Source: a virus
Virus record (IMG/VR): IMGVR_UViG_3300029319_000071
Location: 10,947 to 52,528 of that record
Length of the DNA: 41,582 nucleotides
Direction: 5' to 3' (one strand)
The notes under the pieces are model-generated. The model was not told the origin of the DNA. It saw only the letters and a program-made list of their open reading frames with translations, and did not search any database. Each line of letters opens with the position of its first letter. The first letter of the stretch is position 1. Shown here one piece after another: positions 1 through 12,500 of the stretch. A program made the translations under genes and the position numbers.

Positions 1-900
1 CCCAGCCCTGTTAAGGAAAGTAAGACTTTCGGGCTTAAATCGGGTTCTAACCACGTCTGTGGCTTTCCTAATAGTTTCTACCGGAAGCTTAGTATTTGCC
101 ACAACACGAACTCGGGCACCAAGAGGAATATTGGTGTTCTTTGGGATTCTGCCCTTGGGTGTAAGTTCGATTGTAATAAACGGCTTTGGGTTTTGGAACG
201 TGTGTAGTTCTACCTTGAAATCGTCTTTGTTATCGATAGTCCAAAGCAAGTAGCCCTTATCCATTTCCTCGGCGTGGTTTTGTTGAACTGTGCTGCCAAC
301 ATAGCGCACCCGACCTTCATCGTCCAAGCTTTGGTTGGTTTTGTGAATGTCTCCAAGCAGGGCATAGTCAAAACCCTCAAAGATAGAAACGTCGTTCTCG
401 CCGTGTTCCATAACCCAGCCAAGAGAAGTTTCGCAGCCAGAGATAGAGCCGTGATAAAGAGCAATATTAATTTTTTCTTTCTGTGTTGGCTTTATCCAGT
501 TTTCTGTGTCAAAAACCGATAGAACATTGAATGTTAGGTTATCGTCCCATACAAACTCACCTGACGCCCGCAAGAGGTGAATGTGCGGGTGGTCAAGTGC
601 CGTGACTAAGGGTGTGATGGCATCTTGACGTGCTGTGTTTCTCAGATTGCCGTCATGGTTGCCTGGAATAATAATAAGTGGAGCAATATCAGCTAAGTTT
701 TTGAGAAAATCTGTAGCGAGGTCAAAATACTCTGGTGAGAGATTGACCTTCGTGTGTGCCAAGTCACCACAATGAACAATGATGTCTGGCTGATCTGCTC
801 GCAGTTTATTATACATCTGCGAAAATACAGCGCGGTATTCCTTGTGGTATTTTAGATTTCTGATATGGGTGTCAGAAATGTGGGCAATAGAATAACTCAT
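1..900 (-). CDS. Mre11/SbcD-like (T4 gp47-like) DNA nuclease subunit, 3' end outside window
   Basis: The frame is open from ATG at 900 to the left edge, giving 300 codons without a stop, so the C-terminus is missing. The metallophosphoesterase motifs appear in order: DTH (D10, H12), GDLAH (D46, H49), GNHD (residues 80-83), an isolated histidine in LYHGS (H150) and LGDIH (H186). This is the Mre11/SbcD/gp47 arrangement. Family knowledge: such proteins pair with a Rad50/SbcC/gp46 ATPase and resect DNA ends in recombination. In T4 the pair also degrades host DNA. A gp46-like partner would be expected further left, outside the window. The start ATG shares one base with the TAA stop of the methyltransferase (TAATG), which points to translational coupling. 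A different metallophosphoesterase is possible but the motif set fits Mre11 well. Confidence 0.88.
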   Translation of the reverse strand, partial: MSYSIAHISDTHIRNLKYHKEYRAVFSQMYNKLRADQPDIIVHCGDLAHTKVNLSPEYFDLATDFLKNLADIAPLIIIPGNHDGNLRNTARQDAITPLVTALDHPHIHLLRASGEFVWDDNLTFNVLSVFDTENWIKPTQKEKINIALYHGSISGCETSLGWVMEHGENDVSIFEGFDYALLGDIHKTNQSLDDEGRVRYVGSTVQQNHAEEMDKGYLLWTIDNKDDFKVELHTFQNPKPFITIELTPKGRIPKNTNIPLGARVRVVANTKLPVETIRKATDVVRTRFKPESLTFLNRAG

Positions 901-1838
901 TAAACATCCTTGGTGCGAAGAAGCACCTCTGTTGCTGGCTTTGCTTGGTAACCATCCTCTGTTTTCTTTCTTCGACCTGCTGTGTATGTCACATCAAAGT
1001 AAAGAATGTGGTCCCAACGCGATGTGAAGAAATCATCTCCACAGTCCCTATTCGTCAACCAGCCAAGAGCACCAACCTTTTTGCAATGCTCAAGTGACGA
1101 AATAACTCGCTCTTGCTCTTTATCATGAAAATCAGTATCGTATTGTGTAAAAGAATCCCTATAGGGTGGGTCCATGAAGACAAACGAATCCTTGGTAGCC
1201 CACTTGGAAACTACGTCCTCGTAGTCGCCACATAGTATTTCTGTGTTTTGCAGTGCCTTGTGCCACCATTTCAAAACCTTGTGATCGTATACATGGATAG
1301 TTTGGTTGCCAAGACCAAATGGCGTACCAAATCTGCGATTAGTGTTGTTGTTAACCTGCCAAATACCATTGAACCCAGTCTTCATAAGAAAGTATAGTGT
1401 AGCAGCTTCTTTGGCTTTTGTCCAGTCTTTATATTTGTATGCGTGCTCATGACGTAGTTTAAAATAAAAATACCTACGACATGGGTGGTGCTCATACAGT
1501 TCTTCCCAATCTCTATTCCAGTCCCTCTCTAGCTGTTTTCTTAGCTTTTTATCTGGCTGAAACTCTTTGCGTAAAGGCAAATATTCTGATGATAACTCAA
1601 TCAAACGAGCTTCAAACTCATCGAAGTTATTTTTTATCTCTCGATAGATTGATATTATGCCTTCGTTAACATCGTTAATGACAAACTTTGCGTCGGGGTT
1701 TTGATTGTACGCCCAGATAAACATCGCACCACCGCCGAAGAAGGGCTCGATGTATCTGTCAAATGTTTTGGGCAAATAGGGATCATACTTCTTGAGCATT
1801 TTCTTTTTGCCGCCTGCCCACATAAATAACGGTTTCAT
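900..1838 (-). CDS. dam: Dam-type (D12 class) DNA N6-adenine methyltransferase
   Basis: This 312-residue enzyme would transfer a methyl group from S-adenosylmethionine to the N6 of adenine in DNA. The N-terminal motif FMWAGGKKKML matches the F.GGK.. element of the Dam/DpnM/T4 Dam family. It is followed by the SAM-binding IEPFFGGGAMF (about residue 30-41) and the catalytic DPPY near residue 225, an alpha-class (D12) order. I choose ATG at 1838 over an in-frame GTG at 1844: it forms an ATGA overlap with the stop of the upstream endonuclease gene and has GAGGT just before it. Dam relatives recognise GATC, GATATC, CATG and other sites, so specificity cannot be read off. Overlap with an EcoRI-like nuclease gene suggests it is the protective partner of a restriction-modification pair. 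A solitary phage Dam is the alternative. Confidence 0.92.
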   Translation of the reverse strand: MKPLFMWAGGKKKMLKKYDPYLPKTFDRYIEPFFGGGAMFIWAYNQNPDAKFVINDVNEGIISIYREIKNNFDEFEARLIELSSEYLPLRKEFQPDKKLRKQLERDWNRDWEELYEHHPCRRYFYFKLRHEHAYKYKDWTKAKEAATLYFLMKTGFNGIWQVNNNTNRRFGTPFGLGNQTIHVYDHKVLKWWHKALQNTEILCGDYEDVVSKWATKDSFVFMDPPYRDSFTQYDTDFHDKEQERVISSLEHCKKVGALGWLTNRDCGDDFFTSRWDHILYFDVTYTAGRRKKTEDGYQAKPATEVLLRTKDV

Positions 1839-2350
1839 ACACACCTCGCTAGTGTATCAATCATTTTAGCCTTTACTTCTTCGGGAGTGAAACCATCAGG
1901 GCTCAATACAAAAGAATAGTTTTCACCCATTGTAATCTCTGCCAACCTTCTCATTTTATCGAATACTTCGCCCTCTCTTGCCCCTTCACCGGAACAGAAG
2001 GTAACGTACTTTACATCGGGGTTGATGTGTTTCGCAATGATTGCGTTCTTAAACCATCTTTCGTTGGCGTTGCCTTTTAGTCCTTGTTTTTTTGCTTCAA
2101 ATACAGCAACAAGCTTATCACCAAGAAACCATGCACCACCGTCTGGCTCAAATCCAAAACAATCATCTCCGACATATTTTCTTTTATCCTCTTTTACGAA
2201 ACGCTTTTTGCAAGACAAGTTATTCGTGCCAATGATTGCATCTCTTGATTCTTTAAGGGACACGTCCAGCTTCTTGCTTTTATCGTCATAAGCTGTGGTG
2301 CCAGACTGAATGCCGCCGTTAAACCCAGCGGTTCTTTGTGAAACTTTCAT
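1835..2350 (-). CDS. EcoRI-family type II restriction endonuclease, short form
   Basis: This 171-residue protein carries the two EcoRI signatures. First is PDGG (residues 69-72) followed by EAKKQG (85-90), a PD-(D/E)XK site with D70, E85 and K87 matching EcoRI D91, E111 and K113. Next comes GNANERWFKN (93-102), matching EcoRI GNAIERSHKN, which contains the base-contacting N141, A142, E144 and R145. The EcoRI sequence is recalled from memory. The protein is much shorter than EcoRI (277 residues). The stretch between K87 and the recognition motif is about 7 residues against about 27, so the DNA-wrapping arm appears to be missing. Start ATG at 2350 has AGGAGT upstream. The stop overlaps the methyltransferase start (ATGA). 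Nuclease activity and site are inferred; AATT or GAATTC is the natural guess. Confidence 0.82.
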   Translation of the reverse strand: MKVSQRTAGFNGGIQSGTTAYDDKSKKLDVSLKESRDAIIGTNNLSCKKRFVKEDKRKYVGDDCFGFEPDGGAWFLGDKLVAVFEAKKQGLKGNANERWFKNAIIAKHINPDVKYVTFCSGEGAREGEVFDKMRRLAEITMGENYSFVLSPDGFTPEEVKAKMIDTLARCV

Positions 2351-2354
2351 AATA

Positions 2355-2360
2355 ACTCCT
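2355..2360 (-). promoter_or_regulatory. Ribosome binding site of the EcoRI-like gene
   Basis: On the minus strand AGGAGT lies four bases before ATG at 2350. It decides the start against a TTG codon at 2368 that has the same frame. The site overlaps the last two bases of the primase stop codon, so translation of the two genes may be coupled. Confidence 0.6.
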
Positions 2361-9569: not shown

Positions 9570-12500
9570 TTAATATCCACCACTTCCTCTACCGGGAGCT
9601 ACTGTGGTTGGTCTGGCGGGGGCTGGTGAACGTGGTGGTGGCGCAACGACTGGTTGAGCAATCGGTGCTGGGGCTCTTGTTGGTGTCGGGGCTGGAGTTG
9701 CAGCGGTCGCTTGCGGTCTGGCACTTTCAGCGGGTTCTGCTTGGGGGCGTTGATTAATAACTGCTGTAGCCTTCGGTCTGGTTGCCTTGGCAACACGGCG
9801 ACTAGCGGAGGATCGGGTGGGACGTTTAATCAAGCCGGTGCCCTGGAATCCAAGAATGGCTTGGGTATCGTCAGTGGTAATAAGCGTTGGAACCTCTGTA
9901 TCCAAGAACGAAAACGGAACCGCCACAGCTTGCACAGCGGCTGAGTTGCTGATAATGAAATATTCGTTGAAGATGTCAAACCCTGATTCGATTGGAATAC
10001 CAGCTTTCAAAACGATGCGAGCCATTACATTTGTACCCTCGGGCAGGTTAACAAAGAATTGTTTTGTTAGCGGAGTGTAAACTGGCTGCATATCGTCGGT
10101 AAAGGTTGATACATATTCCAACTGATAGGCGTTCATTAGCCTAGTGATATAAGATGCTGGACGGAGTTTGTATTCAACATCGCCCAACGCCTGAGCTACT
10201 TTGCCATGCTTATCATCGATTTTTCCAAGACGCTTTCCAAGGATAGCTGCCAATACAAAGTTGTAAGTATATGTGGCTTGATCCAAATAAAGTGATTTTG
10301 TTGCCTGTTGACCAAGTTGTTCCACAGCACTTTGCTGGAGAAGCTCTGTGGCTTTTTTAATATTCTTGAGAAACTTGGACAACTTTTTGCCACGCTTTGG
10401 TTTTCTTGAAGAATCAATGGTGCCTGGAATAAAGTTATCTTGTGATGGCAACTCTTTTAATAAAGCGTCATCTGGCACACCGATTGTAACCCCATCAGAA
10501 TTTAAAAGTTGACCGACAAGATCTGACTGATTGGTGTAGAAGTTGCTAGGTTCTTTTACCTCTAGTTCCGCTGCTAAAAGGGTATCTGTGTAGAGCGCTT
10601 CAAAGTTTTCATTCTGTGTCACTAGGTTAATCGTTGCATCGTCAATGGTTATTGACACTGGGGCTAACGATAGTCTCTCGTCATCAGCGTATGCATTACT
10701 CTCGTCTGTGACACCATAAGAGTCAAGGGTAATACCCTCAAGATCAACTCTTGCAGACAGCGTGTTAGGATTCACCAAAAAAGCAGAGCCAAAAGGTTTT
10801 GTTTGATTAATAAAGTCGTAAAACACTCTTGAATCTCTATGAATGTAACCTTTGTCAAAGGTAAAATCAAATGTCTTGTATGGTTTGAAATCTTTCTTCT
10901 GCCCTTTCACGTAACTTCTTGAGCCCTGTTCTGCGACATCAATACCTTCTGCCTGGGCAATTTTCAATAATGTGGTGTATGCCTCGTCATATTGCTCCTG
11001 AAGCTCTTGAAACTGGTCGAAAGAAGCTAGCGTTCTATCTGTAACGTTGATCTGTTGCTTGGGCAAAAGATAGTTGTACAGATCAAATAATTGTTTTCTG
11101 AGTGTGTTGTAGTTCTGACTGTCCACCTTATAGAGATTACTAGTGATATAATCGTCCGTGAAATAGCCTGAGACGGGATTAAACACAGTGATAGATGTTC
11201 GGTCAATGTCCAATGACGCAATAATCTCAGTCAATGAGGTGATATTACTCTGAAGTTTTGGCATCACATACTTGAACAACCCCTCTAAAGGATTTTTTGC
11301 GGTTATTGTAAGTTTGTAATCATATTCTCGCGGATCATAAAAATCAGTGAATCTATAACCAATCGCGATACCACGGTTAAATGTAAATCCAGTTAGCGTT
11401 GTTGGGTCTGCCATTGATTCGACGACACCATTACTAAACACTTTACTCATTTTTACTGAGAATAACACACCTTTAGTATACAAGTCGGGATTATCCAGTA
11501 ACGCCTGATAAGACGTCAGCTTCTTCGATAAGTTCTTTTTGCTCAAGAAGAATGTCCCATTGACAACGTTATTATAATCAACCGATACAAGAGGGTCAGC
11601 GATTATTTTCTCATTGCCCGTATTTTGCAAGTAAGAGTAATATCCCTTTTCTCCGAATGCTTTTTTAACTGAATCAAGTCTCGCTGCTAAAGCAAAGTTG
11701 TCAAGGGCGAACTGGGGCTTTTGTTCAAAGAGGCTAACATCGACCGTTTGTTGCTCGCTAAACTGTTGAGGCTCAAAGTTTTCAACGAGTGGGATGGAAG
11801 CGTAATCTCTAACAGTAAAAACTAGTTTATTGTTTTCACGGAACTCGATATTTGGAACAATGGTCACATATAAGTTTTTTAACTGAGTGTCGGTGAAAAC
11901 GACTTGCGTCTTTTGACTATTGATAATTTTTGGCTCTGGTGGTTCCCCACTAATCTCTATCTGGTCGCTTGATACCTGCAAAGCCTTTGCAAAAGTAAAT
12001 ATCTGGTCTTCGGTTGGGTCTAGCTCAATAGAGTTGTTGTCATTTAGTGCTGCTAGTATTCTATCAGCAAGTGACACTATTTGTTTTACCTGCGGAGCAG
12101 TGGCTGTTAGGTCTATTAAAGATTGCAGAGCAGCATTGTTAGACAATGTTCCTGCATCGACTGCGGCTTGGAGCGCTCCTGCTTGCTCAGTGTCTTCTTC
12201 AACTGTTTGATTGACGGCGGCGGTTGGCTCTTCAACTGTTTGATTGACAGCAGCGGTCGGCTCTTCAACTGTTTGATTGACAGCAGCGGTTGGTGTCGAT
12301 GCCATTTTGAAGATACATTTGTTTAGTTGCTCAACTGCCTGCTGTGCTGGGGCTGGTGCATCGGCAGGAGGAGCATCAATAAACTTTTTTACTTCTTGGG
12401 CTGTTGGTGTCTGAGTTCCGTTGTAAAGATAAAAGCCAACCTGTTGTGCAACTGCCACCAACTCATTTATAAGTTCGTAGCGTTCTGGATCATTCGTCAC

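Follow-up and report, generated by a model that had tools for sequence, protein, structure and literature searches.

A minimal EcoRI relative paired with a D12 methylase

We analyzed a 41,582-nucleotide stretch (the window) of the 52.5-kb virus record IMGVR_UViG_3300029319_000071, covering positions 10,947 to 52,528 of that record. A preliminary description of its first genes, made from the letters alone, proposed that an EcoRI-family endonuclease and an overlapping Dam-type methyltransferase form a complete type II restriction-modification (R-M) pair within a T4-like DNA module. Our analysis indicates that this pair is very likely a functional phage-borne type II R-M cassette with AATT as its target. 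The relevant features are as follows.

1835..2350, minus strand: predicted minimal EcoRI-family restriction endonuclease, 171 aa, phrog_2400 (ATG to stop; profile homology)
900..1838, minus strand: D12-class (Dam/DpnM-like) N6-adenine DNA methylase, 312 aa, presumed self-protecting partner (Pfam, motifs)
1835..1838, minus strand: ATGA, 4 nt shared by the nuclease stop and the methylase start; an overlap of this length is also found in most adjacent homologous pairs
P69-G72, minus strand: PDGG (nuclease sequence)
Segment including E85 and K87, minus strand: FEAKKQG (nuclease sequence)
G93-N102, minus strand: GNANERWFKN (nuclease sequence)
2141-2143, 2096-2098 and 2090-2092, minus strand: codons of the predicted catalytic residues D70, E85 and K87, respectively (EcoRI alignment)
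2057-2059, minus strand: codon of R98 of the GNANER recognition motif (EcoRI alignment)
1356-1358, minus strand: codon of Gln161 of the methylase, at the position of EcoDam Arg124 (methylase alignment)

The EcoRI catalytic and recognition motifs, which had been read in their order from the single sequence, were confirmed by comparison of 46 diverse homologues, in which P69, D70, G72, E85, K87, K88, Q89, G93, N94, A95, E97, R98, and N102 are invariant. Membership in the EcoRI family was borne out by profile comparison. In an hhalign run of a 46-sequence nuclease profile against the EcoRI family, 167 columns were aligned with a probability of 97.1% and a score of 75.5, compared with scores of at most 21.0 for 100 column shuffles and 13.8 for the reversed profile. 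The top five PDB matches of the 46-sequence profile were all EcoRI (E 0.016-0.12); a 6-sequence profile gave chance matches only. Searches of Pfam, NCBIfam and PDB with the single nuclease sequence returned no match, and PADLOC reported a weak REase_II match only (E 0.013). Since the single-sequence searches are empty, the nuclease would escape routine annotation.

In the alignment, nuclease residues D70, E85, K87, Q89, N94, A95, E97, and R98 correspond to EcoRI D91, E111, K113, Q115, N141, A142, E144, and R145. Approximately 21 EcoRI residues between the EAKxQ and GNAxER motifs, M137-A138 included, are missing from the nuclease; EcoRI R203 has no counterpart, and R200 pairs with a conserved Lys in a region where the alignment is uncertain. 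We take N141, R145 and Q115 of EcoRI to contact the AATT core of its site, and M137, A138, R200 and R203 to contact the outer G:C pair. The nuclease gene is under purifying selection, with a ratio of nonsynonymous to synonymous substitution rates (dN/dS) of 0.02-0.26 in testable pairs. These comparisons support the reading of the 171-aa open reading frame (ORF) as a minimal EcoRI relative.

The methylase, also under purifying selection, matches MethyltransfD12 (PF02086; E 5e-35) and TIGR00571 (163 bits vs. a cut-off of 114.85), and contains the motifs FFGGGAMF and DPPY. The methylases linked to the nuclease are nearest to DpnM and EcoDam, with profile E values of 2e-39 to 1e-14 for DpnM, EcoDam and T4 Dam, all of the same D12 family. 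However, the position of EcoDam R124, which we take to read the G of GATC, is occupied by Gln in 66/66 nuclease-linked methylases, whereas it is Arg in EcoDam, DpnM and T4 Dam. At the position of EcoDam K9, 57 of the 66 have Ile, Met or Val, which is weak evidence, as T4 Dam also has no Lys there. The methylase thus belongs to the D12 family and is probably not a GATC Dam. The label 'Dam-type' holds for its class; it should not be taken to mean GATC reading, because all 66 linked enzymes differ from EcoDam at the recognition residue and AATT, not GATC, is depleted in the genomes (see below). The preliminary description was correct that this class differs from that of the EcoRI partner (PF02086 vs. 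PF13651). It had also called the combination unusual, and the mismatch of classes is real; yet a Paracoccus plasmid carries another EcoRI-family/D12 pair.

Among 47 non-redundant nuclease loci, the methylase lies immediately downstream in 27 and within 1.5 kb in 13; six have none and one reaches the contig end. A D12 methylase therefore follows the nuclease within 1.5 kb in 40 of the 46 usable loci. Directly adjacent pairs mostly overlap by 4 nt, and the proposed ATGA overlap in the window was confirmed. Nuclease and methylase distances are correlated (Mantel r 0.80, n=67), as shared ancestry would also predict. Cultured phage S-BM1 has a second, classical Dam elsewhere, and its nuclease-linked methylase is therefore additional. 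With separate, linked endonuclease and methylase genes, the locus has a type II layout, and the proposal of a complete R-M pair is supported by the linkage together with the AATT depletion of nuclease-bearing phages.

The surroundings of the pair vary. In 12-13 of the 47 loci an extra gene, often overlapping the methylase start, stands between the two genes; these intervening genes are of two unrelated-looking types, a DUF6551/ParB-like one (phrog_2558) and phrog_5778 (L007:6578-7690; L049:3707-4681), and one is present in some S-RIM2 isolates and absent in others. Two loci (L001:5090-8051 and L021:4106-7056) contain a run of another D12 methylase, the EcoRI-like nuclease, its own D12 methylase, and a 175-aa ORF with the motif DFEGSDGLRYECK, a possible PD-(D/E)XK nuclease that has no Pfam or PHROG match; this run is possibly two R-M systems side by side. 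L047:371-2175 holds a 323-aa ORF that has an HNH-like motif and overlaps the gene of a D12 methylase from a different subgroup; the two make a second R-M-like pair in a phage that has the EcoRI-like pair too.

AATT depletion and erasure in phage genomes

AATT was predicted as the target because the nuclease keeps the EcoRI AATT-core motif and the methylases have lost the GATC-reading Arg. This prediction from residues preceded counting, for which expected numbers were derived from trinucleotides. The window genome contains 80 AATT sites vs. 264 expected, and observed/expected ratios are 0.25 in S-RIM2 and 0.27 in S-BM1. The median ratio is 0.27 in 19 nuclease-bearing phages compared to 0.74 in 13 nuclease-less phages (p 1.5e-4), and 0.25 vs. 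0.87 when one genome is taken per lineage. In the latter comparison, AATT ranks first among 136 tetramers both by p (1.9e-4, the lowest) and by the size of the drop. All 10 AATT flank contexts are depleted (0.09-0.29; controls 0.76-1.04), which argues for a tetranucleotide site and against GAATTC, RAATTY or other longer sites. GATC was rejected as a target, given that it is not depleted relative to controls (p 0.65) and that R124 is lost. Judging from these residues and counts, the nuclease target is very probably AATT.

Two related nuclease-bearing contigs, L058 (111,864 bp) and L063 (73,883 bp), yielded no D12, N6_N4, N6_Mtase, or EcoRI-type methylase. Both are devoid of AATT, with 0 sites vs. 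340 expected in L058 and 0 vs. 233 in L063. CCGG is the sole other missing tetramer, and two cyanophages without the nuclease likewise lack it in the 50 kb examined. Among helicase-related phages, the four nuclease loci (three of them from the L058/L063 lineage) have AATT ratios of 0-0.13, compared with 0.50-1.08 for 68 loci without the nuclease. The nuclease profile detected no nuclease in 48 contigs of helicase-related phages (0/48), while in another set of 22 records it had 15 matches. It appears likely that tailed phages possess a virus-specific, miniature EcoRI-type AATT enzyme with two interchangeable means of self-protection, a co-encoded methylase or the erasure of every AATT from the genome.

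Several observations weigh against the proposed AATT cassette. The structural comparison with EcoRI that the preliminary description had suggested gave a confident AlphaFold 2 model of the nuclease (predicted local distance difference test score 87.7), but no Foldseek match in PDB at E <= 0.001; EcoRI is absent from the 50 matches listed, the best of which is the restriction enzyme BbvCI (E 0.018). The contigs with zero AATT represent a single lineage (G001 is related to G003) and are incomplete, so that a methylase may lie elsewhere. A diverged clade (L079, L081, L082, L087; stem length 1.86) has intact nuclease motifs, no methylase found and no AATT erasure (ratio 0.66, G006); it may have another specificity, or its methylase may lie beyond the fragment. 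AATT is little depleted in several paired phages (S-CREM2 0.76, G024 0.77), and ratios of 0.50-0.51 occur in some relatives of the window phage that have no nuclease and avoid palindromes in general. The AATT specificity of the methylase is deduced from one residue and from linkage. Weak depletion in S-CREM2 and some others would fit effective methylation, and the depletion left in other phages despite a methylase suggests imperfect protection, for example early in infection.

Other sites are missing as well. Large parts of several cyanophage genomes contain no CCGG, nuclease present or not (L112-L124; L100, L102, L103), and the window genome contains no GGCC; we regard both as imprints of other restriction systems. 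A DUF6267-like gene adjoins or lies near the nuclease in some members of the diverged clade.

Genomic setting and occurrence of the family

The window phage has T4-like terminase, portal and baseplate genes, and its terminase is nearest to those of Flavobacterium phage immuto (47%) and Microcystis phage Mel-JY01 (44%). Upstream of the pair are a primase and a RuvC-like gene, and downstream are gp47 (a calcineurin-like phosphoesterase) and an SbcC-like gp46, which bears out the proposed T4-like DNA module. Two further features define the insertion.

901..2358, minus strand: cassette insertion at the primase/gp47 junction (comparison with relatives L105 and L106-L110)
2356..2360, minus strand: AGGAG, nuclease ribosome-binding site, overlapping the primase stop codon and kept in relatives without the cassette

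Seven phages closely related to the window phage (79-91% identity in the primase) have no nuclease anywhere on the contig. In L106-L110 the primase adjoins gp47 directly, and in L105 the slot holds a different DNA methylase (L105:10944-11873; NPPF motif, phrog_799-like). The nuclease-methylase pair is an exchangeable cassette, because close relatives have either an empty primase-gp47 junction or another methylase there. The L105 phage strongly avoids GATC (0.07) and ATAT (0.09). Far from the cassette, at the structural end of the contig (window 35154-41569), there are sugar-nucleotide epimerase/dehydratase-like genes, an FkbM-type methyltransferase, and a mannose-6-phosphate isomerase-like cupin.

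The nuclease belongs to phrog_2400, annotated as 'unknown function', which is present in the cultured phages S-RIM2, S-BM1, and S-CREM2. Homologues were found in 65 Synechococcus phage records (a 66th match, in an Erwinia phage at E 0.2, was left out) and in 91 confirmed IMG/VR stretches. None was found in plasmids by tblastn, or in bacterial genomes by a scan with two short peptide patterns only, which distant cellular relatives could escape. Within the searches made here, the family is found in viruses only. The homologue gp11 of S-CREM2 (OR473000) is already named 'restriction endonuclease EcoRI' in GenBank, where neither the methylase pairing nor the specificity is proposed, and a text search of the S-CREM2 paper found no mention of EcoRI. 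The adjacent gp12 (L010:2305-4914) is annotated as a Cas9/Csn1-like virion protein.

Proposed function and relation to known systems

From these data we infer the following mechanism. The nuclease would be a shortened EcoRI relative, with the catalytic PD...ExK and the AATT-core motif retained but without the segment that makes much of the contact to the outer G:C pair. It should act as a dimer and cut unmethylated AATT whatever its flanks; the erasure of AATT in one lineage lends such site-specific cleavage indirect support. The overlapping D12 methylase would methylate the AATT adenine on the replicating phage genome and thereby protect it. Made together with the replication genes, the pair would spare phage DNA while unmethylated DNA is shredded, and the methylase-less lineage would be protected by the loss of AATT from its own genome. 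Potential targets are the host chromosome, for nucleotide supply and shutdown, and competing phages; by analogy with chloroviruses the victim could be host DNA, or, following the proposal for marseilleviruses, rival phages.

Three other explanations were weighed. The nuclease could serve only in host takeover, degrading host DNA like T4 endonuclease II, with the methylase an unrelated Dam-like epigenetic enzyme; some phages do have the nuclease with no methylase detected, and orphan Dam-like methylases are common in phages. We consider this improbable in view of the linkage in most usable loci, usually with overlapping genes, the presence of the linked methylase in S-BM1 in addition to a classical Dam, and the recognition change common to the linked methylases. 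Somewhat more doubtful is the possibility that hosts carry an AATT-specific R-M system which the phages avoid, the phage pair being at most a response. Host-driven avoidance of palindromes is common, and these phages avoid CCGG and GGCC irrespective of the nuclease. However, AATT loss follows the phage's own nuclease across lineages, window-like phages and cyanophages included, the 68 nuclease-less cyanophage loci retain AATT, and the prediction came from nuclease and methylase residues ahead of counting.

The least probable of the three is that the cassette is a selfish mobile element, maintained by its own transfer through cutting of the empty site rather than by usefulness to the phage. Its patchy presence, its clean insertion between primase and gp47, and its other slots in other phages would agree with such an element, but a nuclease with a 4-bp site lacks homing-site specificity, the locus varies among lineages, and genome-wide AATT loss reflects a genome-wide effect. 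A working R-M cassette directed at AATT hence remains our preferred explanation.

EcoRI (PF02963) shares with the phage nuclease the motifs PDGG, EAK-Q, and GNA-ER and their order, as well as profile homology. It differs in length (277 vs. 171 aa, the phage enzyme falling below detection by the Pfam model), in the class of its partner methylase, and in its site, GAATTC vs. the predicted AATT. The bacterial enzymes MluCI, Tsp509I and Sse9I recognize AATT, the 4-bp site predicted for the phage nuclease, and come from bacteria, not viruses. In the Paracoccus marcusii plasmid pCP157_17, an EcoRI-family enzyme (PF02963 E 2.5e-16) adjoins a D12 methylase as in the phage pair, but the gene order is reversed, the enzyme has 238 aa, the methylase is of another D12 subgroup, and the pair is plasmid-borne. 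To our knowledge, the restriction enzymes of chloroviruses and marseilleviruses are not EcoRI-like. These eukaryotic giant viruses likewise encode endonuclease-methylase pairs, which degrade host DNA in chloroviruses and are proposed to exclude rivals in marseilleviruses, where the site is GATC (PMC7253447). Phages are known to carry R-M genes, for the most part lone methylases (PMC10711547). We found no report of this nuclease-methylase pair or of AATT avoidance in cyanophages in the literature searched. Judged by that literature, four points are new: that phrog_2400 represents a minimal EcoRI, that a methylase with an altered recognition residue is its conserved partner, that AATT is the probable target, and that site erasure probably stands in for a methylase.

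With this assignment, phrog_2400, a family without an assigned function in many marine and freshwater phages, gains a predicted function and a testable 4-bp specificity, and the 68-locus control set and the cultured phages allow quick testing. A minimal EcoRI would also be useful for studying the origin of EcoRI specificity. If true, lytic-type tailed phages would carry a working EcoRI-type R-M pair, in parallel to the chlorovirus systems, and would present an apparent natural experiment in self-protection, in which the site is either methylated or deleted from the genome.
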